A stretch of DNA of 21,906 bases, taken from Desulfobacula sp. Lineage in GTDB: Bacteria; Desulfobacterota; Desulfobacteria; Desulfobacterales; Desulfobacteraceae. This document shows positions 3,368 to 18,488 of the stretch, one piece after another; position 1 is the stretch's first letter, and each line of letters opens with the position of its first letter. The stretch spans positions 1 to 21,906 of the forward strand of contig JAQICW010000517.1 in NCBI GenBank assembly GCA_027858355.1, written 5' to 3'. The position numbers were made by a program, and so were the translations under genes. The notes under the pieces were generated by a model. It made no database searches, was not told the origin of the DNA, and was given only the letters and a program-made list of their open reading frames with translations.

Positions 3368-3373
3368 AATTAT

Positions 3374-5023
3374 ATGAAAAAAAGTTTATTTTTAATCACC
3401 CTATGTTTTTTATGCCTGTATATTCTTCCTCTTGACATCAGACCTCTGGTTACCCCGGATGAAGTCCGCTATGCCGAGATACCCAGAGAAATGCTGATGT
3501 CAGGGGACTGGATTGTCCCCCGCCTTAATGGGTTGCTGTATTTTGAAAAGCCGGTCATGGGATATTGGCTGAATGGACTTGGAATAAAGCTTTTTGGTGA
3601 AAATGCATTTGCAGTCCGTTTTTTTTCCGCAGTCAGTGCAGGAGTGTCTGCGTTGATGGTATTTTTTCTGGCATTCAGATTTGGAAGCAGCATCCGAAAA
3701 GGGGTGATAACAACAGCCGTTTACCTGACTTTTTTTCTCGTTTACGGACTTGGGGTGTTCAGTGTCCTTGACGGGATGTTTTCTTTTTTTCTCACCGCGT
3801 GCATCGGGTTTTTTTTCCTGTCCTGGTCCTGCCGGGATCGTCCGCACCCCTATTATGGGTATTTGACCCTTGCGGGCATCTTCTGCGGATTTGCCTTTTT
3901 AACAAAAGGATTTCTCGCATTTGTCGTGCCGATTTCCATTATCGTACCCTTTCTTGTATGGGAAAAGGAGTATAAAAGAATCTTCAGCATGTCATGGATG
4001 CCGATCTGTGTTGCAATAATCGTTATTTTGCCATGGGCGGTTCTTATCCATTTAAAGGCACCTGATTTCTGGAACTTTTTTTTCTGGCACGAACATGTGA
4101 AGCGATTCTTCTCTGACGACGCCCAGCACAAAGCATCCTTTTTCTACTTTTTTATGACGCTTCCGGCTGCTCTTCTGCCCTGGACATTTCTTGTTCCTGC
4201 ATCCATTGCAGGTCTCAGGGCCAATGGGATAAAGACTCCGCTTCTACGGTATGCCATCTGCTGGTTTGTCTTTCCATTCCTTTTGTTTTCCATTTCTTCA
4301 GGAAAGCTTTTAACCTATATTCTTCCTTGTTTTCCGGCTCTGGCAATTCTTCTGTCAACAGGTATTATTGAATATTTGAATACAGAAAAAACCTATTGGT
4401 TCAACAAAGGGGTCTTTTTTTTAATGGGTTTCATGGGGCTTCTGATTGTTTGCCTGCTAATACTGCAGACCGGTATGATTGCGCCACTCCATCCCTATGC
4501 ATATGAAGCTCAATGGAAAGAGGCACTTTTTTTTGCTGCCCTAATAATTTTTATTATTGTTTTAAAATCAAGTTTGATTACAGCAGACCACACAAAAAAA
4601 ATACTCATCTTTGCGGCAGCGCCATTGTTTTTTTATCTTTCCGCCCACTTTCTTATTCCGGACCTGACATTTTTAAGAAAGTGCCCTGGTGAACTTATCC
4701 AGAGGAATATGGACCGTATTGATAAAGATGTCCTTGTTTTTTCCCCGTCAACACCGCTAAGGGCTGTCAATTGGTTCCTTAAAAGGGATGATGTTTTCAT
4801 GCTGAGCCAAGGGGAACTGGTTTATGGCCTCAAACAAAAGGGTTACAAAAATCGGTTGGTCAGTTATCAACAATTTTACGAGCTGGTCCGAAAGAACAAT
4901 GGAAAGAAAAAAATTGCAATTATTATTGACCAGTGGGACTATGCAAGGATTAAGGACAACTTGCCGGAATCTGCATATATGGATTCTTCAGGTGATGACG
5001 GATTTGCATTTATTATTTTTTAA
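3374..5023 (+). CDS. arnT: ArnT, undecaprenyl-phosphate-Ara4N:lipid A aminoarabinosyltransferase
   Basis: A polytopic GT83 (PMT-superfamily) transferase of 549 residues; the family norm is about 550. The first periplasmic loop carries the family signature P-D-E-V-R-Y-A-E-I-P-R-E-M (28-40), whose Asp29 corresponds to the conserved catalytic-site acid. It is followed by G-D-W-I-V-P-R and Y-F-E-K-P-V-M-G-Y-W-L-N. Around a dozen hydrophobic helices follow, with a soluble C-terminal region from about residue 440. ArnT moves L-Ara4N from undecaprenyl phosphate to lipid A phosphates on the periplasmic face, reducing negative charge and binding of cationic peptides such as polymyxin. It begins six bases after arnD, with only a weak ribosome-binding site, consistent with operon translation. 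Confidence 0.96.
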   Translation: MKKSLFLITLCFLCLYILPLDIRPLVTPDEVRYAEIPREMLMSGDWIVPRLNGLLYFEKPVMGYWLNGLGIKLFGENAFAVRFFSAVSAGVSALMVFFLAFRFGSSIRKGVITTAVYLTFFLVYGLGVFSVLDGMFSFFLTACIGFFFLSWSCRDRPHPYYGYLTLAGIFCGFAFLTKGFLAFVVPISIIVPFLVWEKEYKRIFSMSWMPICVAIIVILPWAVLIHLKAPDFWNFFFWHEHVKRFFSDDAQHKASFFYFFMTLPAALLPWTFLVPASIAGLRANGIKTPLLRYAICWFVFPFLLFSISSGKLLTYILPCFPALAILLSTGIIEYLNTEKTYWFNKGVFFLMGFMGLLIVCLLILQTGMIAPLHPYAYEAQWKEALFFAALIIFIIVLKSSLITADHTKKILIFAAAPLFFYLSAHFLIPDLTFLRKCPGELIQRNMDRIDKDVLVFSPSTPLRAVNWFLKRDDVFMLSQGELVYGLKQKGYKNRLVSYQQFYELVRKNNGKKKIAIIIDQWDYARIKDNLPESAYMDSSGDDGFAFIIF

Positions 5024-5040
5024 CCTATTGGGGATGCACT

Positions 5041-5412
5041 ATGAATAAATATATTCCTTTGATTGTTTTTGGAGTATTACTCAATGCCTTGGCCCAGATT
5101 GCCCTGAAACAAGGAATGAGGGTAATTGGAACCTTCTCTTTTTCTGTTGAAAATATTCTCCCCATATTGATAAAGGTCAGCGTAAACCCCTTTATAATTG
5201 CAGGTCTTGCCTGTTATGCCGTCAGTGTCATTGTCTGGTTGATGGTCCTTTCACGGGTGGAGGTAAGCTTTGCATATCCTCTTTTGAGTATCGGATATAT
5301 TGTCACGGCATTTGCAGGCTATCTGTTTTTTAATGAAAACATGGGATACGTCAGGTGGACCGGTGTTCTTATCATCTGCCTCGGGGTGTATCTCATCACA
5401 AAAACAGGATAA
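5041..5412 (+). CDS. ArnE/ArnF-like SMR-family subunit, probable Und-P-Ara4N flippase
   Basis: A 123-residue protein with four predicted membrane segments (about 3-22, 46-70, 75-93 and 100-120), the layout of the small multidrug resistance/EamA half-size family. Its place directly after arnT, and segments such as N-A-L-A-Q-I-A-L-K-Q-G near the N-terminus and P-L-L-S-I-G-Y in helix 3, fit ArnE/ArnF (111 and 128 residues in E. coli). Those two form the heterodimer thought to flip Und-P-Ara4N. Only one such gene is present here, so I give no symbol: it may act as a homodimer or have a partner elsewhere. A GGGG at 5030-5033 lies upstream of the ATG. The next gene is lptF, after 55 bp. Confidence 0.85.
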   Translation: MNKYIPLIVFGVLLNALAQIALKQGMRVIGTFSFSVENILPILIKVSVNPFIIAGLACYAVSVIVWLMVLSRVEVSFAYPLLSIGYIVTAFAGYLFFNENMGYVRWTGVLIICLGVYLITKTG

Positions 5413-5424
5413 AGGATAGTGTTC

Positions 5425-5490
5425 ATGTCGCACCGGATATTGCATCATACAGCAAAAGCAAATCGTATTGTTTGGAGTGAAATCAATTAA
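5425..5490 (+). other. Possible 21-codon leader ORF overlapping the start of lptF
   Basis: The 55-bp gap before lptF holds one good start signal: AAAGGA (5411-5416) eight bases ahead of an ATG at 5425. That frame encodes 21 residues (M-S-H-R-I-L-H-H-T-A-K...) and ends at TAA 5488-5490, about 10-20 bases inside lptF and in a different frame. Its stop falls right by the candidate lptF starts (TTG 5468, GTG 5477), which have poor ribosome-binding sites of their own. A coupling leader peptide is possible. Chance, or a small sequence error shifting the true lptF start, is equally possible. Nothing in the peptide resembles a known family. Confidence 0.25.
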
Positions 5491-6658
5491 TATAGTCAAC
5501 AAATATATTTTCCGGGAACTTGTCTTTCCCTTTTTAAACTGCCTTTTTTTCCTGACATTTGTATTCCTGATGACCCGGATTCCCGAAATCGCCAATATGG
5601 TAATGAACTATAATGTTCAAATTTCATCCATATTGATCATGATCGTTTTCACTTTACCCAGATTTTTAGAATTTACCATACCCATGTCAGTTACCATCTC
5701 CATTCTCCTCACAATCATGCGAATGTCCGGAGAGAATGAAATTCTTGCATTAAAGGCTGCGGGCGTATCCCTTTACAAGCTGCTCCCGCCGGTACTGGTT
5801 TTCTGTCTCATGGGAACAATTTTAACCCTTTGGATGACTCTGTTCGCGCTGCCCTGGGCGAATCTGTCCATTCGGCTGAAAAAAATTGAGTTTGCACAAT
5901 CCGGTATTGACATGGCATTGCAGGAGCGTCAGTTTAATTATCAAATTGATAACTTGATGATCTATGTATCCCATGCAGATATAAAAACCCATACCTTAAA
6001 AGACATCCTCATTGAAGATAGGAGGACAAAGGGGGTTGTCAGTATTTCAGCTGCCCCGTCAGGAGAACTTATCCATAACAAAAATAAAATGGTATATACC
6101 CTGAGGCTGTATAATGGAATAATAAACCAGGTAAATTTTGAGCAGGGTTCTGTGAACAATATCCAATTCGAGAATTATGACATCACCATTGATCTGACAG
6201 CAATGAACAGGGCGGGTGGAAAAATAACCAAAGAATTTGATGAAATCAATCCTATTGAGCTGATCCGGCGTATCCGAACAGGCATCAAGGACAAGACTTC
6301 TTTAAATGAAGCCTTGATGGAGTTGAACGAAAAATTTTCTGTTCCATTTGCCTGTCTTAGTCTTGGTCTTCTTGCCTTCTCACTCGGCATCCAGTCAACT
6401 TCCCTGAAACGATCTTCGGGATTCAGCATGGGGCTCCTTTTTTTCCTATTATATTATTTTCTTCTGGCGGCCGGATGGTCAGCCGGAGAAACAGGTGCTT
6501 ACCCTCCGTTTTTAGGCATGTGGATGCCCAATATGGTACTTGGAAGCGCTGGAATCTATCTTTTGATAAGAAACGCAAAAGATAAACCGGTCAGAATGCC
6601 TCAATTTGTTGTTAATCATGCATCCGCCCTTAAGCGGCGTCTTTTGAGAAGCGTGTAA
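5468..6658 (+). CDS. lptF: LptF, LPS export ABC transporter permease (YjgP/YjgQ family)
   Basis: About 396 residues, slightly longer than the usual 360-370. Three N-terminal membrane helices (about 19-40, 52-80 and 105-130) carry the family signature R-M-S-G-E-N-E-I-L-A-L-K-A-A-G-V-S (85-101), which lies in the coupling-helix region contacting LptB. A soluble beta-jellyroll segment (~140-275) and three C-terminal helices (~295-375) follow. With LptG and the LptB ATPase (not in the window) it extracts LPS from the inner membrane and passes it to LptC/LptA. The start is uncertain: TTG 5468 or GTG 5477. The latter gives V-K-S-I-N-I-V-N-K-Y-I-F-R-E-L, the common N-terminus. Neither has a strong ribosome-binding site. 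lptG follows after three bases. Confidence 0.93.
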   Translation: MFGVKSINIVNKYIFRELVFPFLNCLFFLTFVFLMTRIPEIANMVMNYNVQISSILIMIVFTLPRFLEFTIPMSVTISILLTIMRMSGENEILALKAAGVSLYKLLPPVLVFCLMGTILTLWMTLFALPWANLSIRLKKIEFAQSGIDMALQERQFNYQIDNLMIYVSHADIKTHTLKDILIEDRRTKGVVSISAAPSGELIHNKNKMVYTLRLYNGIINQVNFEQGSVNNIQFENYDITIDLTAMNRAGGKITKEFDEINPIELIRRIRTGIKDKTSLNEALMELNEKFSVPFACLSLGLLAFSLGIQSTSLKRSSGFSMGLLFFLLYYFLLAAGWSAGETGAYPPFLGMWMPNMVLGSAGIYLLIRNAKDKPVRMPQFVVNHASALKRRLLRSV

Positions 6659-6661
6659 TTC

Positions 6662-7738
6662 ATGTCCTGCCTGCATAGATACTGGCTAAAAGAATTTTTA
6701 AAACTGTTTTTTATTATCCAGGCCATCATCCTTATCCTGTTTGTTTTTATTGAGTACCTGTCGATGATGAATAAATTTTTAACCTCTGATATTACCCTTC
6801 TGGGTGCATTGTGGTATGTTCTGCTGGAAACACCGTTCATGTTTGTACAGGTTGCACCCGCAAGTATTCTTTTATCCAATATTTTTGTTTTTGGTACGAT
6901 GAACAGGAACAATGAACTTTTGGCATTAAAATCATCAGGAATCAGCATTTATTTTCTCGTAAAACCAGCTATTTTTTCTGGTTTTGTACTTGCCTCAGCC
7001 ATGTTTCTTATGGGGGAAATTCTCGTGCCCATATCCATGGTAAAGGCACACCATATCGAATATAGCGTCATCAGACATCAAAAAAATATTTCACAAAGCA
7101 GAAAGAATATATGGATTAGATCTGGTAAAAAACTCATCCACTTTAATTACTATGATCCAATGAAAAAATCAGCGGCCGGCATTACAATCGTATCCATGGG
7201 GAACACCTTTCGACCTGAATCCAGATTTGATGCACAAAAAGGCTATTACAAGGATGGAGAATGGATTTTTGAACATATTATCCAACAAACCTATAACCCC
7301 GGGACAGGTGATTATGATGTCACCAATTATGAAAGAAAAAAAATCGCCTTGAAAATAGACCCTGAAGATTTTGAACAAATGGTAAAAAAATCAGATGAAA
7401 TGGGTTATTTTGAACTTAGAAAATATGTAGATAAAGTGAAAAGCGAAGGATATGACGCAACAACCTATAGGGTAGACCTGTATGGAAAAATTGCATTCCC
7501 TTTTATCTGCGTTATTATGGCCTTGACAGGAGCGGCCACCGGCATGAAATCTTTTACAAAAGAGAGTATTCCCAGGGCGATAACTACAGGAATTATCATT
7601 TCATTCATGTACTGGTTTTTTCATGGGTTCTGTATGTCTCTTGGATATGGAAATTCTCTGCCTCCCCTGTTGGCTGCCTGGGCAGCCAATCTCTTCTTTT
7701 TTTGTTTTGGCAGTATCTATCTTATAACTACAGAATAG
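6662..7738 (+). CDS. lptG: LptG, LPS export ABC transporter permease (YjgP/YjgQ family)
   Basis: A 358-residue partner of LptF with the same plan: three N-terminal helices, a periplasmic jellyroll (~130-265) and three C-terminal helices. The signature M-N-R-N-N-E-L-L-A-L-K-S-S-G-I-S lies at about 79-94. It starts three bases after the lptF stop, so the two are made together. Calling the first gene lptF and the second lptG follows the usual order; the two families are homologous and could be confused. The location directly downstream of the arn genes places LPS export and lipid A decoration in one apparent transcription unit. It is convergent with the kinase gene, separated by 61 bp that contain only a 4-bp hairpin (7745-7756) and no clear terminator. 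Confidence 0.92.
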   Translation: MSCLHRYWLKEFLKLFFIIQAIILILFVFIEYLSMMNKFLTSDITLLGALWYVLLETPFMFVQVAPASILLSNIFVFGTMNRNNELLALKSSGISIYFLVKPAIFSGFVLASAMFLMGEILVPISMVKAHHIEYSVIRHQKNISQSRKNIWIRSGKKLIHFNYYDPMKKSAAGITIVSMGNTFRPESRFDAQKGYYKDGEWIFEHIIQQTYNPGTGDYDVTNYERKKIALKIDPEDFEQMVKKSDEMGYFELRKYVDKVKSEGYDATTYRVDLYGKIAFPFICVIMALTGAATGMKSFTKESIPRAITTGIIISFMYWFFHGFCMSLGYGNSLPPLLAAWAANLFFFCFGSIYLITTE

Positions 7739-7799: not shown

Positions 7800-9206
7800 T
7801 TACGTACTATGAGGCAAAGAAACTATTACCCGTGTCCAATCCCCTGGTTTGCTCTCAAATTTTATCTGCCCATTATGAAGCTCGATGATTCTTTTTACAA
7901 TGGCGAGCCCCAAACCCGCACCGCCGTGCTGAAGTGCCCTGGACTGTTCAACCCGGTAAAATTGGTCAAACACTTTGCCGATCTCAGTCTCGGCAACGCC
8001 TGGCCCCGTGTTACTCACCATTATCGTTAAACCACCCTCAGATTGCTCACCAACCACTTCAACCCTGCCTTCCTCCACGTTATACTTGATGGCATTATCC
8101 AGTATATTTGAAAATGCACGGTTTAGCTTTTCAGCATTTCCCTCTGTTAGAAGTTGCCAAGGAAGACTGACCGATATTTTAATATTGCGCAGGTCGGTCA
8201 AAAAACGGTAATCCTCTATCAAAGATGTCAGCAGTTTGGCCACATCTACAGGGTCTTTGGCTATGACGTCTTTAATTTCAAGTGATGACAGATCCAGAAG
8301 ATTTTTCACAAGTCTTTCCATACGCAGCACTTGCTCGGTCAGCCATGCAAGGTTTTGGGTTTGAAGGCTGGAAAATTTTTCATCCTGGGATGAGCGTGTT
8401 TCATCCAGAGCCAGCCGCATCATGGTCAAAGGTGTTTTCAATTCGTGTGACGCGTCGGCAAGCAACTGCTTTTGCCGTATAAAGGCATGCTGCAGACGCT
8501 CAAAGACCTGGTTGAGTGTTCGGGCCAGGGTGTTGAACTCGTCCGGGTCAGCGCCCACCGGTATCCGCCGATCAAGATGCTTTTCGGTAATATCCCTGAC
8601 CTGGTCGTTCATCACCTGGACAGGTTTCAGGATATACCCGGCAACAAAATAGCTGATTGCCATCAGCACCAGCACTGAAAATGCAAGGCCGCTGACAACG
8701 CCAATAAAGATATCCCATAGCTCTTCTTCGAGTTTTTCCATTGGACAGGCGGCACAAACTAAAAATGTCTTTCCATCCAAAGAAATGATGAAGCTTTTCA
8801 CCCGAAAAGTCACTTCATTTTGCCGATCCTGCCTTAAATCAATTTTATTCCGGGGAATAATCACACTCTCAGTGGCACTGGAACCCGGAGCCGGTTCTTT
8901 AATTTTTACTAATTCAGCCAAATGGGACTGATAAATCAACTTGCCGGCAGCCTGATCATAAATCTTCAGCCAATAACGGTCATCCCCCACAAACAAAGGC
9001 TCATCCGGAATTATATCCCCTTTTTTCCAGCTTGTTTCACCTTTTGAAACAATGGGGACAGTCCTTTGAGAGACGGCTTCCAACTCAGAATCGATAATAC
9101 GAAACGGCTGTTCAATCACTTCCCACAATATGATGCATGAAAATATCAGGCTGGATAAAAACCCGGCACCTGTAATCAGCAGGGCAATTTTTTTCCGAAC
9201 AGTCAT
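7800..9206 (-). CDS. Sensor histidine kinase, two-component system (HAMP-HisKA-HATPase)
   Basis: A 468-residue inner-membrane kinase. It has a first helix ~8-30, a periplasmic sensor region ~31-164, a second helix ~166-192, and HAMP ~193-245. HisKA follows with D-A-S-H-E-L-K-T-P-L (phospho-accepting H254), then an N box N-I-L-D-N-A-I-K-Y-N (367-376), G1 box N-T-G-P-G-V (399-404) and G2 box G-A-G-L-G-L-A-I (429-436). All catalytic boxes are intact. The sensor region contains C151-x2-C154 just ahead of helix 2. The ATG overlaps the response regulator stop by 4 bp (ATGA), so they form a pair. The PmrB/CusS/QseC-like layout and the arn genes next door make an envelope-stress or cationic-peptide signal plausible. 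The ligand cannot be read from sequence. Confidence 0.95.
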   Translation of the reverse strand: MTVRKKIALLITGAGFLSSLIFSCIILWEVIEQPFRIIDSELEAVSQRTVPIVSKGETSWKKGDIIPDEPLFVGDDRYWLKIYDQAAGKLIYQSHLAELVKIKEPAPGSSATESVIIPRNKIDLRQDRQNEVTFRVKSFIISLDGKTFLVCAACPMEKLEEELWDIFIGVVSGLAFSVLVLMAISYFVAGYILKPVQVMNDQVRDITEKHLDRRIPVGADPDEFNTLARTLNQVFERLQHAFIRQKQLLADASHELKTPLTMMRLALDETRSSQDEKFSSLQTQNLAWLTEQVLRMERLVKNLLDLSSLEIKDVIAKDPVDVAKLLTSLIEDYRFLTDLRNIKISVSLPWQLLTEGNAEKLNRAFSNILDNAIKYNVEEGRVEVVGEQSEGGLTIMVSNTGPGVAETEIGKVFDQFYRVEQSRALQHGGAGLGLAIVKRIIELHNGQIKFESKPGDWTRVIVSLPHST

Positions 9207-9886
9207 TTGTCTTCACTCTTGATAATATACCCTACACCCCGAATGGTCTGAATGATCTTACCATGACCGGAATCCCCGATCTTGTGGCGCAGGTTTTTGA
9301 TATGGACATCCATAAAATTCGACATGGTGAAAGGATCAAAGGCGTCTCCCCAAACGTGTTCTGTCAGGTTGAAACGTGACACGGCCCTGTTCTTGTTGTA
9401 TAATAAAAATTCAAGTATGGAAAACTCCCTGGCAGTCAATTCTACAAGGTTACCTCCTTTTTTCACTTCGCGGCTGACAGTATCGAGCTGTAGGTCTTTT
9501 ATATGTAAAATCGGATCGGCTTGCCCTCCGGACCGCCTGAACAGAGCGCGAATGCGTGCCAAAAGCTCATCAAGCGAAAAGGGTTTGGCCAGATAGTCGT
9601 CAGCGCCCAGGTCGAGCCCCTTGATCTTGTCGTCGCTTTCGACCTTAGCCGTCAGCATTAGAACAGGTGTGGTCATGCCCGCCTGCCTGATTTCCTGCAG
9701 CACAGACAACCCGTCTTGTTTTGGTAGCATAATATCCAGAATAATCAGATCAAAGGGAGCATCAAACAGCTTGTCCAATGCCGCTTCACCATCCAGTGCA
9801 GTTTCAACCATGTAGCGCTGACCTTCAAAAGCACGCTTGAGCTGATCCAATAATGTCTGCTCGTCATCAACAATTAATATTTTCAT
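9203..9886 (-). CDS. OmpR/PhoB-family response regulator
   Basis: A 227-residue regulator. The receiver domain (1-~118) has the acidic pair D7-D8, phosphorylation site D51 in L-D-I-M-L-P, T79 and K101. The winged-helix DNA-binding domain (~127-225) has T-A-R-E-F-S-I-L-E-F and the recognition-helix segment S-N-F-M-D-V-H-I-K-N-L-R-H-K-I (189-203), ending R-G-V-G-Y. The ATG is preceded by AGAGG in the 38-bp gap after the glycosyltransferase fusion gene. There is therefore little room for an independent promoter, and it is probably co-transcribed with the lipid genes upstream. It is the cognate partner of the overlapping kinase. By position it could be a PmrA analogue for the arn genes, but I found no convincing operator in the window. 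No symbol is given. Confidence 0.95.
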   Translation of the reverse strand: MKILIVDDEQTLLDQLKRAFEGQRYMVETALDGEAALDKLFDAPFDLIILDIMLPKQDGLSVLQEIRQAGMTTPVLMLTAKVESDDKIKGLDLGADDYLAKPFSLDELLARIRALFRRSGGQADPILHIKDLQLDTVSREVKKGGNLVELTAREFSILEFLLYNKNRAVSRFNLTEHVWGDAFDPFTMSNFMDVHIKNLRHKIGDSGHGKIIQTIRGVGYIIKSEDK

Positions 9887-9924: not shown

Positions 9925-12141
9925 TTAATCATTTTTTGATTTACCAAGGACGACCACGCGCCGGTATAATTTCAAAATTTTATCTGTCATTTTTTCCACG
10001 GAATAATTTTCAGCAAATGGTCTGCAATTTTCAGATAAAATTAATAATAGTTGGTCATTCTCTAAGAGAGCGACTACAGCCTTTGCCCAGCTATCAGTAC
10101 TTTCTAAGACCTTAAATCCATTATAGCCATCTTTGACCACATCATAAACCCCGCTGGCGCGTACCGCAACAACAGGACAACCACCTGCCATGGCTTCCAG
10201 TAATACCATCCCCTGCGTCTCCGAGGTAGAAGCGAACACGAAAATGTCGGCGGCCAGGTAACACCGGATAACCTCATGCGGGGCCATATTTCCGGTGAAA
10301 ATAATCATGTCTTCCATGCCAAGAGCAGCTACCTTCTGCTCAAGCCGCTCCTTTTCCGGACCATCGCCCACCAGCAGACATTTAAACGGTATTCGACTCC
10401 TTTCCTTTACTTTCTCAAGCCCGTTGATCAAAAAATCAAGGTTCTTTTCTTTTGCCATTCGTGAAACGCTGATCAAAAGGCGTTCGCCCAGGACCACATA
10501 TTGACTTCGAAACTCTTGAACTTGGCTATCAGACCAGCGCTTGTAATCCTCAATGCTGATACCGGTGGGAATCGTCTCGATCAGGGCACTGACCCCAAGG
10601 TTTCGAAGGTATTCCTCAGTGGAGGATGTGGGGGTGATAATGGCATCGCATCTGTTGGCAAAATGCTTGATGAGAAAATGAACTGCCAAATTTTTTAAAA
10701 CCATCCCCGGAAGCGGGATATAGTGCGTATATTTCTCCAGCCGGGTGTGATAAGTAAAAACCACTGGTATATCATCCTTCCTGGCAAGTCGCATACCCTT
10801 TTTGCCCAACCAGAAAGGATGATGAACATGTACAAGGTCACAGTCAAATGCCTTGAACACCGTTTGAATTTTCCGCGAAAAAATATTGGCAACAGGAAAA
10901 TTGTTTAACCGATTAAAAGAAAATGTCGGACACCGGAAGATACTGCCGTCTCCTGGATCTGTCCATTGTTGCGGATAGCCCGGGGCAAAAAGTTTCACTG
11001 TTGACCCCAGCCGGACAAGCCGCCGATAAAGCCGGTCAATAGAAAGAGGCACACCGCCAATAAACGGAAGGTAGTTATTGGTAAACATGGCCACGCGAAG
11101 CCGTGATTCCGAGAGGGCCTCTTCATCAACACTGAAATCGCGATATAAGTGCTCCTGGCGGATGATCATCTCATACACTTTCAAGGCCACAAGACTGATC
11201 ATGCTCAGAATCAGCAAGGAGTTGAAAATACTCATATAAAAAAAGGAATGTAGAAAAAGTTTCAGAGTTTCAAATTTTTCCCTGAACAGACCCAGCCTCT
11301 GGGGAGCAGGCACATTTTCAAAAGCCACCTGGTCCGGACCTACATTGACTTTTACAAATTGGTAATGCTCCTGCTGATCAAGAAGTAACCCACCGCCGCC
11401 ACCTGATATAACATAGCGAACGCCCTGCACCATGCTATCATGGTAAACAGGATAGCTAGCTGAAAAAACAGCAGTCACCTTATATTGGGAAAATAAATTC
11501 TGTAAAATTCGACTCAATTTTTTATCCAGAACATATTTGGAGTAATCCGAATCAAAACCTGGCAAAAAAAACAAAGAATTGCCTAAAAATATAAACCGAT
11601 ACTGGTATTTCCCAGCCTCTATCAATCTCTGTCTCAACCACTTCAATTGCCATTTCCAGGAAGTCTGCCCTGTTGAATCAAGGAAAATGAAACAGGCGTT
11701 TTTAAGATAAAAGGAAAAAAAATAAGGGCCAAAATGCCGATAGAATTTTTCTGCTCCAAAATCTTCAGCCTCATTAAGGCCTGCGGTCAATACGTAGGGG
11801 AGACCCAATTTGTTGAGCCCGCGGTACAAGAGCCGGTATTTGCCTTCTGTCCCATCATAAACCGCGTTTCCCGCTGATATAATAAAGTCAGCTCCATTCT
11901 CCCGGATCAGGGGCGCAATACGCCTCTCAAAAATTCGCATGGAATTCCTGATATTGCCTACAACAGCAAATTTAAACTTGGCTTTATCGTGGAGACTTGC
12001 TTCGATCCGGTCAATATGATCGGCGTTGACTGCCTGATAATCTGTCTCATATACCAGGAGAAAAACCTTATAACCAATGACAGATGCCATGAGCAGCAGA
12101 ATAATGATCAGATATAACTTTGATTTTTGTTTGCGGCTCAT
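9925..12141 (-). CDS. Fusion of an inactive metallophosphoesterase-like domain with a GT4 glycosyltransferase
   Basis: 738 residues in three parts. Helix ~9-31 leads into a periplasmic region (~55-285) that aligns along its length with the phosphoesterase encoded at 13997-15019: F-A-V-V-G-N against F-A-V-F-G-D, A-G-N-A-V-Y-D-G against L-G-D-L-V-F-D-G, and S-G-G-G-G-G against T-G-G-A-G-A. Every metal-binding or catalytic position is replaced: N63, N92, L122-N123, G187, A228, Y230. A second membrane segment (~296-325) returns the chain to the cytoplasm. Residues ~348-730 form a GT-B glycosyltransferase of family 4, with N-Y-L-P-F-I-G-G-V (356-364), H-T-R-L-E-K-Y-T-H-Y (465-474), R-M-A-K-E-K-N-L (561-568) and the E-x7-E pair E641/E649. 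The H-T-x4-Y-x-H-Y stretch recalls diacylglycerol glucosyltransferases. The start ATG overlaps the upstream stop by 4 bp and has AAGGGA at a good distance. Glycolipid synthesis is my inference. Confidence 0.9.
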   Translation of the reverse strand: MSRKQKSKLYLIIILLLMASVIGYKVFLLVYETDYQAVNADHIDRIEASLHDKAKFKFAVVGNIRNSMRIFERRIAPLIRENGADFIISAGNAVYDGTEGKYRLLYRGLNKLGLPYVLTAGLNEAEDFGAEKFYRHFGPYFFSFYLKNACFIFLDSTGQTSWKWQLKWLRQRLIEAGKYQYRFIFLGNSLFFLPGFDSDYSKYVLDKKLSRILQNLFSQYKVTAVFSASYPVYHDSMVQGVRYVISGGGGGLLLDQQEHYQFVKVNVGPDQVAFENVPAPQRLGLFREKFETLKLFLHSFFYMSIFNSLLILSMISLVALKVYEMIIRQEHLYRDFSVDEEALSESRLRVAMFTNNYLPFIGGVPLSIDRLYRRLVRLGSTVKLFAPGYPQQWTDPGDGSIFRCPTFSFNRLNNFPVANIFSRKIQTVFKAFDCDLVHVHHPFWLGKKGMRLARKDDIPVVFTYHTRLEKYTHYIPLPGMVLKNLAVHFLIKHFANRCDAIITPTSSTEEYLRNLGVSALIETIPTGISIEDYKRWSDSQVQEFRSQYVVLGERLLISVSRMAKEKNLDFLINGLEKVKERSRIPFKCLLVGDGPEKERLEQKVAALGMEDMIIFTGNMAPHEVIRCYLAADIFVFASTSETQGMVLLEAMAGGCPVVAVRASGVYDVVKDGYNGFKVLESTDSWAKAVVALLENDQLLLILSENCRPFAENYSVEKMTDKILKLYRRVVVLGKSKND

Positions 12142-13214
12142 TGCAGGATTCCCTTTTTACGGCTGAATATCTCCCTGTAGACAACAAAAATACCGATCAG
12201 CACCCCGATATAGATGGTCAAAAGGCGCCAGGACAGAGTCAGCAGCAGGATATCCTGTTTTTGTACAAGCTGTGCAAATAAAAGTCCATATCCACCTTCG
12301 GCAACGCCTGTTGCCCCTGGTGTCGGGGCAAAATACATAAAAAATGTCACCACTACCTGAAAAGCCAGAACGGTCAAAAAAGGCACTTGATACCCAAACG
12401 CCCTAATAAGAACGACGGAAAATGAAAAGAGCAGAAAAAGAAACAGGGCCGTGGACAAAATAGACAGGGCTGCCCAGCGCGGTCTGCCTCTGAAATACCG
12501 TTTAAAACCGCCTGAAAACAGGTCTAACTCATGGGAAACCTTCAAAAAAACAGATCGGAACCGCTGCCGTGATAATATTTTTATAAAATTGAGCCAGTAC
12601 AATCCCCTGTATATCCAGCGCTTGATCATTTTAATCCGGAAAAGGATGATCCAGAAAACGGCAAGATATGCACATGAAAATCCGGTGATGCCATAGAGCA
12701 GATTCTTGTGGAGAAATGTATGAAACAGGCTTGGCATGGCCCAATTAATAATCGGTGTGAGTGTAAAAAGCATCAAGGCTGCCAGCAGGGTCCGAATTGA
12801 CGTGGCGGCCGTTGCCTCCCCGATGGGCATTCCTTTTTGTTTCATGAAATAAACCTGAACCACGCCACCGCCGGTGGCAAGAGGAGTGACATTGGATACA
12901 AAAATATTAACAAAGACAAGCTTCATGATATAGGTGAAACCAATGCGGAACCCCATCGCCCTTATAACGCAATACAGCCGCAGGCCGTCCATCAGAAAAT
13001 ACAGAACCAGTAAAACCACCAGACTGCCAACGACATGAATTGAAAGCAGTCCCGAGGGAATTCTAAGCTGCCCTGCCCAAAAATAACGGTGAACAAAATA
13101 AAGAGTGGTGAAAGACAGTATAAAAAATAATATTGCCAGCCCGAAATACCCCAGTGAACGCTTAGAGATATGCAAAGGAACATGTTGATCTATGGGTTGT
13201 AATGCTTTCATCAT
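12138..13214 (-). CDS. LPG-synthase-like transmembrane protein (TIGR00374/YbhN type, putative lipid flippase)
   Basis: A 358-residue integral membrane protein with about eight helices. Diagnostic segments are N-V-T-P-L-A-T-G-G-G-V-V-Q (108-120), followed by a charged Q-K-G-M-P turn, and F-A-P-T-P-G-A-T-G-V-A-E-G-G (295-308). Both are hallmarks of the lysylphosphatidylglycerol synthase transmembrane-region family, whose members flip or synthesise modified lipids. There is no soluble C-terminal aminoacyl-transfer domain, so it is not a full MprF. It is encoded between an acyltransferase gene and the glycosyltransferase fusion gene, overlapping the latter by 4 bp. This suggests it moves the lipid product or precursor of that enzyme. 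ATG 13211 just inside is an alternative start. No strong ribosome-binding site is visible. Confidence 0.88.
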   Translation of the reverse strand: MMKALQPIDQHVPLHISKRSLGYFGLAILFFILSFTTLYFVHRYFWAGQLRIPSGLLSIHVVGSLVVLLVLYFLMDGLRLYCVIRAMGFRIGFTYIMKLVFVNIFVSNVTPLATGGGVVQVYFMKQKGMPIGEATAATSIRTLLAALMLFTLTPIINWAMPSLFHTFLHKNLLYGITGFSCAYLAVFWIILFRIKMIKRWIYRGLYWLNFIKILSRQRFRSVFLKVSHELDLFSGGFKRYFRGRPRWAALSILSTALFLFLLFSFSVVLIRAFGYQVPFLTVLAFQVVVTFFMYFAPTPGATGVAEGGYGLLFAQLVQKQDILLLTLSWRLLTIYIGVLIGIFVVYREIFSRKKGILQ

Positions 13215-13223
13215 CTATTAAAA

Positions 13224-13904
13224 TCAATTGTCTTTTTTTGTGCCATCATTATAAACCATATTGTCAGCCTTTTTGTCCAGCCTTATAATAGCTTTGGCAA
13301 GTTTACCCGACCACTTGGATACCTGTACCTGCCCGGCACTAATTCCGGGCGGGACTTTGATGGGCACACCAAAGACCAGGCCTATCCTTGCGAATGGCAG
13401 TGGAATTTCCATTCGGTCCCATCGTTTTTTAAGCACCATCTTCCTGCTGCTATTTACTGAGGCAGGCAAAAGATCAAATCCGTATGTAGACGCAATCCGT
13501 ATGATCCCATTTTTGACAACGTGCCGTGGGCCCAGAGGGCCATCCACTGCCAGGCCACCCACCCGGCTTTCAGACAAAGCTTTTCCCATAAAATTAAGGG
13601 CACCCTGTCCTGATTGATCCGGTATCCGGGTGGTCTGATAACCGAAATTTCGACATATTTCAGAGATAACGTTCCCCCGCACTGACTGGTTGGTGACAAT
13701 GAGCGCCTTATAGCCCTCCAGCAAGGAAAATACCGGCACATATTTTCCATGCCAAAAACAAATAAGGAACCGTTCTTTGCTGAAATACAATCGATCCAGG
13801 TAGTCCCGACCATCAACGCGAACCTGCCAGGTTCTGCTTTGCAGGCGCAACAGGCTGGAAAAAATCCTGCCTTTGAATATGGTCAACTGCCTTTTTTTAC
13901 TCAT
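13224..13904 (-). CDS. Lysophospholipid acyltransferase-family protein (DUF374)
   Basis: A 226-residue protein with the features of the DUF374 branch of the acyltransferase superfamily. These are F-W-H-G-K-Y-V-P-V-F (50-59, catalytic-type H52), then V-T-N-Q-S-V-R-G-N-V-I (70-80), and A-V-D-G-P-L-G-P-R-H-V-V-K-N-G (119-133). An N-terminal hydrophobic or amphipathic stretch and a basic C-terminal half fit a peripheral inner-membrane enzyme. Relatives are thought to acylate lipid A-like or lysophospholipid acceptors, but the substrate is not known for this branch. The ten-base gap to the flippase-like gene supports co-expression. Upstream lie 92 bp without a gene, holding a small ACCG/CGGT inverted repeat at 13969-13980 with no T-run. 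Specific substrate unknown. Confidence 0.85.
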   Translation of the reverse strand: MSKKRQLTIFKGRIFSSLLRLQSRTWQVRVDGRDYLDRLYFSKERFLICFWHGKYVPVFSLLEGYKALIVTNQSVRGNVISEICRNFGYQTTRIPDQSGQGALNFMGKALSESRVGGLAVDGPLGPRHVVKNGIIRIASTYGFDLLPASVNSSRKMVLKKRWDRMEIPLPFARIGLVFGVPIKVPPGISAGQVQVSKWSGKLAKAIIRLDKKADNMVYNDGTKKDN

Positions 13905-13996: not shown

Positions 13997-15019
13997 TCAT
14001 GATTTTTTGAGCTCAAACACCACTGCCAGAGCATAGGCCATCAGCAGGAATATAGCAATTTCAATACCATGCAGGCGAACCATAGCGTACAGGTAAATCC
14101 AGGCCATGGAACCGACCCGATCCAGCCACTCAAAATCAGGGGTTGCTATGGGCACAACCGCTATTTGGACATCTGCGCCTTTTATGCTGACTTTCAGGTA
14201 ATGGAAAAAATCATGTTCCGGATCTTTACCGACAAGTTCCGCTCCGGCACCCCCTGTGATGGTGAATGGAATCCCCTCCCATTTCCCAGAATAGTAGGAA
14301 TGAATATGGGATGTAAAAATATGAGTGACATTATTTGTTTTAAATAAATCAAGCAGAGAGCGTGCAGATTCCGGCGGCATACAGTGGTGATGCCGGCCGC
14401 CTCTTGGATCATACAATGGCACGTGCATGAAAACAAACCTGTGGGAGGCATCAGCCGCTTTTTCTAACTCTTTTTCCAGCCATTGACGCTGCCATTGATC
14501 CAGGTCTTTCTCATCTGCATTGTCAATCACAATAAAAAAATCCCGGCCGATTTTGAAAGAATAATAAAACGGCCCGAATAATTCATAGTACAGACCCCTT
14601 CCCTTTTCACGCAGCTCGTGGTTGCCAATGGCCGTTAGCAGGGGGATTTCCATGTTTTTGCGGACCTGGCTGAAAACATAACGATATTTTTCCATCTCAC
14701 CGTCAAAAACCAAATCACCAAGATCCATTGCAAAACCAAGCGAAGGGTCCTGGCTTACTTTCCGAAGCAGTTCAGGAAAGGCTGAATGACTATTTTTATT
14801 GTCCCCGAAAACAGCAAATGCGTAATCATTCGAATTATTAATTTCAATAGTCTTCAAGTTTTGAGCAAGCCAGTTTTTGGCTGGTGGGGCTGCAAAAAAA
14901 AACCAGATTTCGGCACTAATCAGAAGAAAAGCACAGAATATGAATAATCCCATTGCTACTGGATGCTGCCTTCTATGGGTGTTAAAAATATTTAATATCG
15001 CTTTAATCATTTGTTTCAT
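13997..15019 (-). CDS. Membrane-anchored periplasmic metallophosphoesterase (calcineurin-like)
   Basis: 340 residues: a helix at ~22-43, a soluble domain ~60-295, and a C-terminal helical stretch ~303-335. The metal site of the calcineurin-like family is complete. D73-N74 lie in F-G-D-N-K-N, G101-D102 in L-G-D-L-V-F-D-G, N133-H134-E135 in I-G-N-H-E, H199 in F-M-H-V-P-L-Y, and H238-x-H240 in T-S-H-I-H-S. Helix placement puts the catalytic domain in the periplasm. The substrate is unknown; a lipid-linked phosphate or phospholipid head group would fit the neighbours. It heads the acyltransferase/flippase/glycosyltransferase/two-component run, with a promoter-like sequence about 45-75 bases upstream and AAGGA ahead of the ATG. 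Its domain is paralogous to the inactive domain of the fusion protein at 9925-12141. Confidence 0.92.
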   Translation of the reverse strand: MKQMIKAILNIFNTHRRQHPVAMGLFIFCAFLLISAEIWFFFAAPPAKNWLAQNLKTIEINNSNDYAFAVFGDNKNSHSAFPELLRKVSQDPSLGFAMDLGDLVFDGEMEKYRYVFSQVRKNMEIPLLTAIGNHELREKGRGLYYELFGPFYYSFKIGRDFFIVIDNADEKDLDQWQRQWLEKELEKAADASHRFVFMHVPLYDPRGGRHHHCMPPESARSLLDLFKTNNVTHIFTSHIHSYYSGKWEGIPFTITGGAGAELVGKDPEHDFFHYLKVSIKGADVQIAVVPIATPDFEWLDRVGSMAWIYLYAMVRLHGIEIAIFLLMAYALAVVFELKKS

Positions 15020-15108: not shown

Positions 15109-17172
15109 TCATTGCCCGCATCTCTCCCATATCAGCAATACCCTGCCTTGCCAGTGTATCCTGCGGTGATCATCATCCACCTGGATTTCTTCCCCGGACC
15201 GGCTGACGGATTCGATAGAAAATTGATCCTTGAGCATGCCTTTTATTCCGTCCAGGGGATGGTCATACTCTCCCGTATCCATTGCTGCGATGATCAAGCC
15301 GGTAAGGTGCCGGAGGTGCTGAACCTCTATTGTTCCAATGAAAAGGGGAGTGTTGCCCTTTTCGATTATAGTATCCGAAGGCCATAGACGCAGTACCCAC
15401 CGATTGTTTTTGTCCCTGTAAATAAGGCGCAGCCTGTCAACCCGGCCGGAATGGAGATGAGGTAAAACAGGTAATTTTTCAATGGGTACATCCGGTGAAA
15501 ATATTCCCAGAAGGCTTTTCAAATTCATGGGTGAAGGCCGATGCCATCCCAGGCTTAACAGGTGCCGGACAAGCTTTTCAGGGGAGCCGGCCCACTGGAT
15601 GGTCAGAGGCTGTTCTCTTTCACCGCCCATATCAAACCGCCAGGCCGAAAGGTTTTTCCAGCCGCTGCCGGACCAGACAGCAAACGCCATGGTCTGGACA
15701 TTGTATCGAGGCGCATACAGAACAAGATCTTTTTCAAGGTTCCGGGCCACATGCCATCCTCCGGCGAACACGATAATTAGAATGGTTACAAGCCCCAGTA
15801 AACACCGGGGAACTTTTGGGGTTGGTTTTTTCAGCCAGGCGATTCCTGACAGGGCTGTCCAGCTTGTGCCGATAAAAATTCCTCCCAGAATATCAGAAAG
15901 CCAATGGGTACCCAGATAAAGGTGGGAAAGTGCGATAATAAAAGAAATCAGGAGCACTGTAATAAAAATCCCCCAGCGTAATGATCCCAAAGAACTCCTG
16001 GCAAGCAGGATTGCAAGGAACCCATACAGAATCACACTTGTCGCCGTATGACCACTAAGAGATCCAAAGGCCAGGACTCCCTGAACGACCACAGGAAAAA
16101 CCAGATGACTCAACCCTTTAAGCGATTGAAACCCTGCCAGGGCACCGAGTATGGTTATTGTCCAAAATCCCGCAGTGCGGTAGCATTTTCTTGAGACCAG
16201 CACGACCAGGATGGCAAAAAACAGGCAAATATTTACAAAAGAATCCCCCAATTCTGATATGGCGGCAAAAACAGGATCTGCCCATGGGGTTCGAAGCGAC
16301 TGAAAAAAATGATACACCGCCTGATCAGCCAGTACCAGCGGATCTTTGGCCAGGACATCCTGAAGAACGCTTAAAGCCCCCCATCCGGATAGGGAAAGCA
16401 ACAGGACTAAAAAAATAAGAAATAATTCCTCACCCTGCTGGCGGAGGAACAGGTAAGAAAAAAGACTTTTGACAGGGCGCAGCAGCCAATGGACTGGTTC
16501 ATCTGTGGAAATCCAGCCTTTGAACGTTGCAAACCAGACCGGACCCTGATGGCCCACCCGCAACACCAGTTTGCGGCCAAGCCAGATAAAGCCCCATACC
16601 GCCACAAGGAGGATGAAAACAAGCACGGCCAGACGAGTGCTGACCGCACCGGCCACGGCCAGGGAAGTCCCGAAAAAGACTCCGGGCAGGATATAGACTA
16701 GGGCCCAGCCAATGGCGGAGACTACATTGACCACGGAAAAATGCAGTGGCCTCATGCCTAGCATCCCTGCAACAACCGGTATGACCGGGCGTACCGGTCC
16801 GACAAAACGGCCGAACAGCACACTTATGCCGCCATGACGTTTAAAAAAAACTTCCCCTTTCTCCAGCATGCCGGGATAACGGGAAAACGGCCAGACCTGC
16901 CGCAGCTGGTCTTTGTAATGGTGACCCAGCCAGTAGCTGATACCATCTCCGGCAATGGCGCCTAATGCGGCCAGGGTCAGCACTGTTTTCAGATCCAGGC
17001 TGCCTGTGGCCACCACAGCCCCGACACCGAACATGATCACCGTACCGGGGATAATTAAACCGACCAGGGTCAGGGATTCGGAAAGAGAAATCAGAAAAAC
17101 CGCCCCATAGGCCAGGACGGGGTGATGGGTAATAATAGCCAGCAATATGTTGATGTAATGCAGATGGCTCAT
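15109..17172 (-). CDS. DedA-PAP2-LssY fusion membrane protein
   Basis: I place the start at ATG 17172, which overlaps the upstream stop by 4 bp and is preceded by GAAGGG. The longer frame to 17268 lies inside the upstream gene. The product is 687 residues. Residues ~1-205 are a DedA domain, with S-E-S-L-T-L-V-G-L-I-I-P-G (31-43) and F-G-R-F-V-G-P-V-R-P-V-I-P (120-132). Residues ~250-450 are a PAP2-like domain with S-L-S-G-H-T-A-T (371-378) and H423/D427. Residues ~480-687 are a soluble LssY-type C-terminal domain. Such fusions are known and usually annotated as bifunctional DedA/PAP2 proteins. The PAP2 part looks weakened: motif 1 keeps K352 but has no R-P pair (H-L-V-F-P), and motif 3 has S-H where S-R is usual. 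A role in undecaprenyl-phosphate turnover is inferred. Confidence 0.9.
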   Translation of the reverse strand: MSHLHYINILLAIITHHPVLAYGAVFLISLSESLTLVGLIIPGTVIMFGVGAVVATGSLDLKTVLTLAALGAIAGDGISYWLGHHYKDQLRQVWPFSRYPGMLEKGEVFFKRHGGISVLFGRFVGPVRPVIPVVAGMLGMRPLHFSVVNVVSAIGWALVYILPGVFFGTSLAVAGAVSTRLAVLVFILLVAVWGFIWLGRKLVLRVGHQGPVWFATFKGWISTDEPVHWLLRPVKSLFSYLFLRQQGEELFLIFLVLLLSLSGWGALSVLQDVLAKDPLVLADQAVYHFFQSLRTPWADPVFAAISELGDSFVNICLFFAILVVLVSRKCYRTAGFWTITILGALAGFQSLKGLSHLVFPVVVQGVLAFGSLSGHTATSVILYGFLAILLARSSLGSLRWGIFITVLLISFIIALSHLYLGTHWLSDILGGIFIGTSWTALSGIAWLKKPTPKVPRCLLGLVTILIIVFAGGWHVARNLEKDLVLYAPRYNVQTMAFAVWSGSGWKNLSAWRFDMGGEREQPLTIQWAGSPEKLVRHLLSLGWHRPSPMNLKSLLGIFSPDVPIEKLPVLPHLHSGRVDRLRLIYRDKNNRWVLRLWPSDTIIEKGNTPLFIGTIEVQHLRHLTGLIIAAMDTGEYDHPLDGIKGMLKDQFSIESVSRSGEEIQVDDDHRRIHWQGRVLLIWERCGQ

Positions 17173-17768
17173 AGCCCTTCTCTTCGCCTCTTTATTAATA
17201 CTCCCAGCGCATGATAGAGGACCTGGATCAATTTCTCGTTCAACGGCCGAAGACGTCCCGCAAGCCAATGCACCAAACCGACGCTCGATAGTCCAGCGAC
17301 GAGGCTTCCGGCCATATCAAAGGGAAAATGGATACCACTGTAAACCCGTCCCCAGGCAGTCAGTATGGCAGCAACCAGAAGCAGAATACCGGAAGTGGAC
17401 CAGTTCCTGGCCATAAGCAGATAAAATGCAGCGGCAAACATCAAAGTGGCATGATCACTGGGAAAAGAGGTTTCCGGTCCATGGGGGAAGAGCGGTGTGC
17501 AAAGTCCGATCATGTAAGGCCGCGGGTGAAAATAAAAATGGCCGATCAACTGGTTGACAACCAGGCCGATAATCATGGCCTGTGTTGCTTCAAGAAGAGC
17601 TATTTTGTTATATTTGTCCACAAAAAATCATAAAATGATGAACAAAGCCACCAGAAGATAAGGGCCGCCTTCGGCGAAAAAAATGGCAAAGCCATCCGTA
17701 ATCGGTCGCGTCCCGGCTCCTGCGTGAATCCACTGAAAAATCTTCGCATTCAAGTCCATTGCCATCAT
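17169..17768 (-). pseudogene. BcrC/YbjG-like PAP2 phosphatase gene interrupted by an in-frame TGA
   Basis: A 199-codon frame runs from ATG 17768 (GGGAG just upstream, 4-bp ATGA overlap with dedA) to a TGA at 17171-17169. It is broken only by TGA at codon 47 (17630-17628). Codons 1-46 read [14 protein letters not shown]..., a normal N-terminus and first helix for this family. After the stop come N-Q-L-I-G-H-F-Y-F-H-P-R-P (72-84), the motif F-P-S-D-H (102-106), and G-R-V-Y-S-G-I-H-F-P-F-D with R141, H147 and D151. That active site, undamaged, is that of undecaprenyl-pyrophosphate phosphatases of the PAP2 class. Without the stop the length equals the usual ~200. A GTG at 17621, three codons after the stop, could start a 150-residue protein lacking the first helix. 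It may be a nonsense mutation, readthrough or a sequence error. Confidence 0.75.
17628..17630 (-). other. In-frame TGA (codon 47) in the PAP2 gene
   Basis: Codon-by-codon reading from ATG 17768 gives F-I-I-L (codons 43-46), then TGA, then F-F-V-D-K-Y (codons 48-53) in the same frame. The position lies at the end of the first helix, where relatives often have Trp, so a TGG-to-TGA change is the simplest origin. TGA ends other genes in the window, so it is a true stop in this organism. The bases after it are AT-rich and show no stable hairpin of the bacterial SECIS type. Confidence 0.85.
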
Positions 17769-18391
17769 TTTTTCTCCCATTGCTGTACCTTGGATATGCG
17801 AACCTTCCGCTTATGCCAATAAAAAATCAGCAGGATAACGCATCCAATCACTAGGACCATGGTAATCCAGTGCAGGTTCTGGAGGACCAGTTGCTCATTG
17901 CGGCCAAACCAATACCCCATGGCTGCCAGCGCCAGCACCCAGATTCCTGCCCCGAGAACGGTTGCCGAACAAAAGGCGAATATATTCATTCGGGCCAGAC
18001 CCGCCGGAAGCGAAATATACTGGCGGATACCCGGTAACAGACGACCGACAAAGGTGCTGATATGCCCGTGGCGTTCAAAAAAGCGGTCTGCTTTTTCCAG
18101 CGACTGGCGGCTTACCAGCAGATACCGCCCATATTTTTCAAAAAAAGGTCTGCCAAACCTCAGGGCAAGCCAATAGTTGAAAACAGCCCCCATAAGGCTT
18201 CCCAGAGTGCCGCAAAGAATGACCATCCCGATGTTCATTTTACCGCTGGCGGCAAGATAAGCCGCGGGAGGGATCACTACCTCACTGGGGAATGGGAAAA
18301 ATGAAGATTCCAGGGCCATGAGCATCACGATGCCCGGATATCCCCATTGGCCTACAGTGGCAGAAAGCCAGGTAACAAACTGGTGAAACAT
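17765..18391 (-). CDS. DedA-family membrane protein (SNARE-associated/VTT domain)
   Basis: 208 residues from ATG 18391, chosen because AAGGGAG lies six bases upstream. The TTG at 18412 would use codons that form this ribosome-binding site. Conserved elements are the acidic residues E28 and E37 in [11 protein letters not shown] (27-37), [10 protein letters not shown] (79-88), and [12 protein letters not shown] (114-125) with its two arginines. Several hydrophobic segments and a basic C-terminal tail complete it. DedA proteins act in membrane-potential and lipid homeostasis. Some recycle undecaprenyl phosphate across the inner membrane and several influence polymyxin resistance. The stop overlaps the ATG of the PAP2 gene by 4 bp. 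The 97-bp gap from the RND gene holds no gene and only weak promoter-like matches. Confidence 0.93.
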
Positions 18392-18488
18392 ATTAAACTC
18401 CCTTTTCTTCAAATAACTATCAGCACCTTTTTGAACTCAAGATAACAGGCCATAATGAAGATAGCATGAAGCTGGAAGCGCACCACTC

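Follow-up and report, generated by a model that had tools for sequence, protein, structure and literature searches.

The 21,906-nucleotide stretch of DNA analyzed here (the window; contig JAQICW010000517.1 of assembly GCA_027858355.1, Desulfobacula sp.) contains a gene encoding a protein, P0001, in which a calcineurin-like pseudo-phosphoesterase domain is fused to a glycosyltransferase (GT) of family GT4. The computations gave a fused architecture, a predicted calcineurin fold, loss of the metal-ligand set, purifying selection, conserved former active-site loops and linkage to a flippase gene. The parts of the fused gene and a nearby stand-alone relative, P0002, are listed below (P numbers denote proteins, L numbers loci and G numbers genomes; ORF, open reading frame; TM, transmembrane).

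9925..12141, minus strand: fused gene P0001, 738 aa (ORF and Pfam), encoding a TM helix, the pseudo-calcineurin-like domain, a second TM helix and GT4
12049..12117, minus strand: membrane helix 1, residues about 9-31 by hydropathy (helix 3-31 in the model)
11302..11982, minus strand: pseudo-phosphoesterase domain, residues about 54-280, predicted to be periplasmic
11953..11955, minus strand: codon of N63, which replaces the first metal Asp
11866..11868, minus strand: codon of N92, which replaces the bridging metal Asp
11158..11289, minus strand: membrane helix 2, residues about 285-328 (helix 285-328 in the model; hydropathy)
9928..11100, minus strand: GT4 domain, residues 348-738 (Pfam), with E641-x7-E649 at 10195-10221
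13997..15019, minus strand: stand-alone TM-anchored phosphoesterase P0002, 340 aa, with seven ligands (PF00149, 42.5 bits)

As proposed in the initial annotation, the N-terminal domain of P0001 can be aligned with the neighboring phosphoesterase together with its flanking helices: residues 40-278 match residues 52-290 of P0002 with 26% identity (BLASTP, E 9e-26), and hydropathy profiles place hydrophobic helices on both sides of the domain in the two proteins alike. In the Pfam scan PF00149 scored 16.9 bits on the fused protein, under the curated cut-off of 21.5. The predicted structure of the pseudo-domain is calcineurin-like, in keeping with the proposed paralogy, and its fold matches include Plasmodium GAP50 (PDB 3tgh); a search of solved structures with an N-domain profile returned nine distinct chains at E <= 0.01, all of them purple acid phosphatases (best 3.6e-5). 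Based on the two hydrophobic helices detected by hydropathy, the N-domain is predicted to be periplasmic and the GT4 half cytoplasmic.

None of the seven residues of the two-metal ligand set is kept in P0001. Five of the residue pairs originally listed against P0002 were recovered in the alignments (D73-N63, D102-N92, N133-L122, H134-N123 and H199-G187) and the last two had to be shifted by one, with H238 pairing with S229 and H240 with P231 instead of A228 and Y230; that all seven positions differ holds nevertheless. The protein search with P0001 scored 7998 candidates and gave 1026 matches at E <= 1e-3. Of the best 120 of these, 114 have a length of 700-800 aa; they include P0001 itself, to which the others are 79% to about 55% identical (figures from the protein searches refer to the best 120 of 1026, 890 and 2926 hits). 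N63 and N92 are invariant across these 114 full-length sequences, Gly occupies position 229 in 111 of them, and His is found at the columns of H134, H199, H238 and H240 in 7, 2, 0 and 10, respectively. Asn is likewise present at positions 63 and 92 in all 23 loci of the genome scan.

A larger set of 156 non-redundant fused sequences was read, where fused means a near-complete N-domain followed by a GT in one frame and where 188 rows were merged at >= 98% N-domain likeness (merging by identity only, 164 to 153 fused, could count genes with different starts twice). In this set no ligand is kept in 127 sequences, one in 23, two in 6 and more than two in none. Position 63 is N in 144, S in 4, E in 1 and a gap in 7, meaning that the first metal Asp is retained by no fused sequence read, and position 92 is N in 153, D in 2 and a gap in 1. 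Position 229 is Gly or Asn in 151/156 and position 231 is Pro in 114/156. The ligand loss is thus a trait of the family. The local decay of a once-active fused enzyme has a negligible likelihood and was rejected: some reading frames are broken (L014 and L029 and, by the ORF table, L018 and L019), which may reflect assembly errors in metagenome-assembled genomes (MAGs), but the same loss recurs in relatives from several phyla, no fusion homologue retains more than two of the seven ligands, and the ratio of nonsynonymous to synonymous substitutions (dN/dS) of the domain is low, at 0.045-0.174.

Certain residues of the old site are near-invariant, including N63 (144/149 read), N92 (153/155 read) and N66 (149/149 read), and E124 and D155 are present in 156/156 fused sequences. 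In addition, position 122, where active enzymes have Asn, is His in 73/156, and position 187 is Asn in 77/156; both are possible ligands, old or new. Because of the His at position 122, the fused domain may hold a different, weakly binding metal site, and these polar residues would also suit a pseudo-domain that is still catalytic without the canonical two-metal site. Such residual catalysis is quite improbable, considering that two ligands are the most found in any fused sequence, that positions 229 and 231 are so often occupied by Gly or Asn and by Pro, and that E124 and D155 are common to the unfused relatives, where they may be structural (D155 in 149/155; position 124 Glu in 120 and Asp in 34).

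The dead domain is under purifying selection. Pairwise dN/dS values of the pseudo-domain in seven pairs were 0.045, 0.080, 0.084, 0.174, 0.067, 0.079 and 0.069, and those of the GT half in the same pairs were 0.062, 0.169, 0.152, 0.219, 0.047, saturated and 0.086; the pseudo-domain was thus under the GT half in five of the six pairs computable for both, the values being rough since several dS are >= 1. Together with the family-wide loss, these values bear out the earlier view that the fold without its metal site is a selected feature. Over 138 full-length rows the mean column information was 2.70 bits for the pseudo-domain and 2.82-2.95 bits for the GT. Within the domain, the former active-site loops, hand-chosen from strand ends of the model, reached 3.29 bits vs 2.55 for the rest, a value that 0 of 217 circular shifts attained; leaving out Gly and Pro, the figures were 3.14 vs 2.55 bits (1 of 188 circular shifts).

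This conservation bears on the possibility that the domain is purely a scaffold or anchor in the manner of the pseudo-phosphatase GAP50, attached to a protein partner in the envelope (the flippase or a different protein) rather than to a small ligand. The likeness to GAP50 is a fold match to the pseudo-domain alone, and GAP50 is eukaryotic, an inner membrane complex anchor by its PDB title, and has no glycosyltransferase. A scaffold of this kind seems rather unlikely: a partner surface elsewhere on the domain would not explain the extra conservation of the former active-site loops, and a flippase gene is not nearby at 10 of the 40 loci described below.

In an unrooted tree of 80 chosen N-domains, built by a quick method with the eight ligand-motif columns left out, the 39 fused domains form one side of a branch with a Shimodaira-Hasegawa-like approximate likelihood ratio (SH-aLRT) support of 98, with one label change vs a shuffled mean of 27. 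The branches around the fused group are long, which makes it uncertain what its closest relative is. P0002 lies away from the fused rows, and a recent duplication of this neighboring gene was rejected because the two N-domains lie far apart; the paralogy between them is remote.

The fusion has a wide and patchy spread over several phyla. Genome surveys (matches > 250 bits, in draws that include genomes already known as carriers and MAG contigs that may be mis-binned) detected it in 6/395 genomes of the phylum of Desulfogranum, one of them (G097) with the gene in two pieces, 7/398 of the phylum of Terasakiispira, 3/299 of that of a Clostridia MAG, 6/120 of that of an Acetomicrobium MAG, 5/50 of that of a Deferribacteraceae MAG, one being cut by the contig end before the GT, and 2/149 of that of a Planctomycetota MAG. 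The fusion of Sphaerochaeta pleomorpha is 59% identical to P0001 over the whole length.

The stand-alone relatives mostly retain the ligand set. Among 155 non-redundant unfused relatives (protein hits and loci, from 172 rows), all seven ligands are present in 131, six in 10 and fewer in 14, and each of the seven ligand columns is kept in 114-116 of 118 stand-alone rows, in which the paralogue of the window is counted twice (P0002 and P0122). All seven were kept by 16/24 stand-alone proteins and not by the other 8 in the survey of one phylum (excluding the spurious antisense ORF L033 minus), and by 11/12 in those of other phyla (L075 being without an ORF row). P0002 itself had been described as intact; it has the seven ligands and yet is not fully canonical, with Lys75 in place of the His of the canonical motif D-x-H. 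This column is Lys in 96, Arg in 19, Ser in 2 and Gln in 1 of the 118 rows, and given that Lys or Arg (115/118) replaces the His, the metal site of P0002 and its relatives may be unusual. Two unfused rows of the 155 have no ligand at all and are likely L093, cut by the contig end, and the N-terminal piece of L014, which has the broken frame. Several ligands are missing from the unfused phosphoesterases of L035, L036, L037, L038 and L040, which fall in two separate places in the tree, suggesting that ligand loss probably arose more than once outside the fusion. Pseudo-enzymes therefore occur among the unfused proteins too, yet all the fused ones read are pseudo-enzymes.

The other genes around the fusion in the window are the following.

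12138..13214, minus strand: flippase-like gene (LPG_synthase_TM; PF03706, 109.2 bits, cut-off 33.4), presumably UPF0104, with a 4-base overlap with the fusion gene
13224..13904, minus strand: DUF374 gene (PF04028, 29.3 bits, cut-off 26.8), which we take to be acyltransferase-like
15109..17268, minus strand: VTT (DedA)-PAP2-LssY_C gene (Pfam)
17169..17621, minus strand: PAP2 phosphatase gene (Pfam)
17765..18412, minus strand: VTT (DedA) gene (Pfam)
9203..9886, minus strand: response regulator, downstream of the fusion (Pfam)
7800..9206, minus strand: histidine kinase, downstream of the fusion (Pfam)

The flippase-like, DUF374, P0002, VTT-PAP2-LssY_C, PAP2 and VTT genes are all upstream of the fusion and run in the same direction. 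A DUF374 relative is present at 9/23 loci of the genome scan. Further away, positions 478-7738 hold a cluster resembling the lipid A aminoarabinose genes, with an ArnA-like formyltransferase-epimerase detected by Pfam, followed by what we take, by eye, to be deacetylase, ArnT and small transporter lookalikes and then two presumed LptF/LptG lookalikes.

Linkage to the flippase was examined at 40 other loci (42 less L061, which is the same gene as L023, and L019, which is without upstream sequence; L001 and L006 share a genome). The flippase gene lies directly upstream of the fusion at 28 of them, nearly always overlapping it, the overlaps being upper values as ORF starts were set at the first start codon. 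At L106 it is upstream with a transposase gene in between and at L070 it is downstream; at the remaining 10, in stretches of differing length, no such gene was found. The gene separating the two at L106 encodes a DDE transposase (L106:10567-11694). Five of the 10 flippase-less loci (L021, L022 and L065 and, by size, L066 and L067) have an adjoining convergent VTT or VTT-sized gene. More generally, in the relatives from the Terasakiispira phylum and in L022 a VTT gene (L021, L022, L065) or a VTT-sized gene (L062-L064, L066, L067) adjoins or lies near the fusion in the opposite orientation. One metagenome protein, P0317, carries the C-terminus of a flippase (55% identity over 58 aa) joined directly to GT4. 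Since the fused gene so often adjoins a lipid flippase gene, the pseudo-domain may sense or receive the flipped glycolipid.

Locus L070 presents the order fused GT4, DUF2334, flippase (L070:6110-10090), in which the fused GT4 occupies the place of GpgS in a gpgSDF-like operon. The DUF2334 protein scored 338.4 bits (cut-off 280) as a deacetylase of N-acetylglucosaminyl-phosphatidylglycerol (GlcNAc-PG) and the flippase 272.3 bits (cut-off 320) as a glucosaminyl-phosphatidylglycerol (GlcN-PG) flippase; the fused protein of this locus has Glu, not Asn, at position 63. The window's flippase scored 19.1 bits with the same GlcN-PG flippase model (NF053789, cut-off 320), and no deacetylase gene like that of L070 was found beside the fusion among the neighbors scanned.

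A comparable grouping was observed with intact phosphoesterases. At L113:8354-11485 and L115:6638-9760, two of the three genomes with an intact phosphoesterase at E <= 1e-30 in the phylum of the Deferribacteraceae MAG, overlapping genes encode a monogalactosyldiacylglycerol (MGDG) synthase, an intact TM-anchored phosphoesterase in the middle and a PF03706 flippase, surrounded by VTT-PAP2, PAP2 and two-component genes; the arrangement is absent from the third, L114. This trio could be an active version of the fused system in split form. At L118 the stand-alone phosphoesterase is near unfused GT4, VTT-PAP2-LssY_C and PAP2 genes, and at L120 it accompanies a lipid A acyltransferase gene and genes like those at 478-5023 of the window, presumably ArnA-like, deacetylase and ArnT; in the rest of the 14 stand-alone loci covered (L113-L126) the neighbors are RND, regulator or unrelated genes. 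In L041:697-2397 and L042:703-2394 a seven-ligand phosphoesterase and a VTT (DedA) domain share one ORF, the VTT domain being assigned by Pfam for L041 and by similarity for L042.

The GT4 half of P0001 is well supported as such (PF00534, 127.5 bits, cut-off 26.4; PF13439, 106.3 bits), its E-x7-E pair is retained as E641/E649 in 114/114 sequences, as had been noted for P0001, and its modeled fold resembles BshA, MshA and PimA. The best NCBIfam match of P0001 is the alpha-monoglucosyldiacylglycerol synthase NF049988, with 182.7 bits, under the cut-off of 400, and the GpgS model NF053787 gave 114.9 bits for P0001 and 87.5 for the L070 protein (cut-off 480). In the three proteins tested (P0001, L070 and L100) diacylglycerol glucosyltransferase is the top family score. 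Source names among the matches listed include several forms of glycosyltransferase, 1,2-diacylglycerol 3-alpha-glucosyltransferase and hypothetical protein. Based on family resemblance and operons, a lipid acceptor can be inferred, which agrees with the earlier assignment as a glycolipid glycosyltransferase, although the scores are below every listed NCBIfam lipid-GT equivalog cut-off and the acceptor is accordingly uncertain. The low scores would also fit an acceptor that is non-lipid or undecaprenyl-linked, with the dead domain binding a periplasmic glycan, and the PAP2 and VTT neighbors suggest polyprenyl phosphate recycling. This alternative is nonetheless improbable: diacylglycerol glucosyltransferase gives the best family score, and there are gene groups that combine the fusion with a GlcNAc-PG deacetylase (L070) and the unfused phosphoesterase with MGDG synthase.

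Known systems share parts of this arrangement. MprF carries flippase and lysyl transfer in one chain and is not known to have a phosphoesterase domain; in the window, flippase and synthase are separate genes. PlcP-Agt of other bacteria pairs a phospholipid-cleaving enzyme with a GT, both separate and active, and this pairing resembles the fusion by description. The likeness to MprF lies in the coupling of lipid modification to an LPG_synthase_TM flippase (PMC10128005). Glycolipid synthesis in a sulfate reducer is represented by Agt of Desulfovibrio alaskensis (Dde_3613) (PMC5193443). The gpgSDF operon of Pseudomonas aeruginosa makes glucosaminyl-phosphatidylglycerol with a GT4, a COG3233 deacetylase and a UPF0104 flippase, and the window is similar in having GT4 and a UPF0104/AglD2-type flippase in one gene group (PMC12713373). 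L070 comes closer: accompanying its fused GT4 are a deacetylase that exceeds its cut-off and a flippase that falls somewhat short of its own. By contrast, GpgS is predicted to be cytoplasmic and without membrane helices in PMC12713373, and the window's fusion has no deacetylase gene alongside and scores 114.9 vs 480 with the GpgS model. HexSDF of Clostridioides difficile likewise combines a glycolipid synthase, a deacetylase and an MprF-like flippase near a two-component system; it differs in that HexS is annotated as an MGDG synthase, and "metallophosph" has no occurrence in PMC10128005. The text of PMC4796936 has no match for fusion or metallophosph, and no description of the fusion architecture was found in the full-text literature, among the top entries of longer lists and with subscription journals mostly outside.

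Altogether, glycolipid synthase, phosphoesterase and flippase turn up together repeatedly, the phosphoesterase being either intact and encoded by a gene of its own or dead and part of the fusion. The most economical explanation is that the phosphoesterase worked on the head group of a lipid that the flippase supplied, of which activity the fused form retains recognition alone. Such recognition might be used for feedback on the GT, for hand-off or for scaffolding. At about even odds (a probability near 0.5), it can be hypothesized that the fused protein synthesizes a glycolipid in coupling with the flippase and that its periplasmic pseudo-enzyme domain, by binding a lipid head group, acts as a sensor or receiver. 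The cytoplasmic GT4 half would glycosylate a membrane lipid, either diacylglycerol or a phospholipid, and the flippase from the overlapping upstream gene would transfer the glycolipid to the periplasmic leaflet, where the former active-site pocket, unable to hold two metal ions, may bind a head group, either that of the flipped product or that of a phospholipid competing with it. The pseudo-domain would then report to the GT via membrane helix 2, or hand the lipid on, so that synthesis would be matched to export.

Several observations weigh against this flippase-coupled reading. The full-length model has a predicted template modelling (pTM) score of only 0.57, so contacts between the domains are not predicted, and the membrane helices show no one-sided conservation that would point to a partner interface (helix 2, p 0.27; helix 1, p 0.37), which for helix 2 leaves the signaling path without direct support. 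The active-site loops were chosen by hand, and structural needs may account for much of the conservation at the site, given that unfused relatives commonly have D155 and E124 as well. The possible ligands at positions 122 and 187, the 10 loci without a flippase gene and the sub-threshold GT scores count on the same side. The head-group binding, signaling or hand-off by the pseudo-domain is thus put forward as a candidate function. A more far-reaching version, which is unlikely, is a widespread enzyme of trans-bilayer quality control: a hydrolytic lipid phosphoesterase, formerly the companion of a glycolipid synthase and a flippase, would have joined the synthase in one chain, lost catalysis a single time and turned into a receptor that tells which lipid has reached the outer leaflet and gates its synthesis on the inner side.

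To our knowledge, how bacteria measure glycolipid synthesis against outer-leaflet export is largely unknown. A one-chain protein with a predicted inner catalytic half and a predicted outer half derived from a dead lipid enzyme is a candidate sensor of synthesis and export, and the family provides a clear case, in which fusion and metal-site loss coincide across phyla and mostly intact stand-alone relatives are available for comparison.
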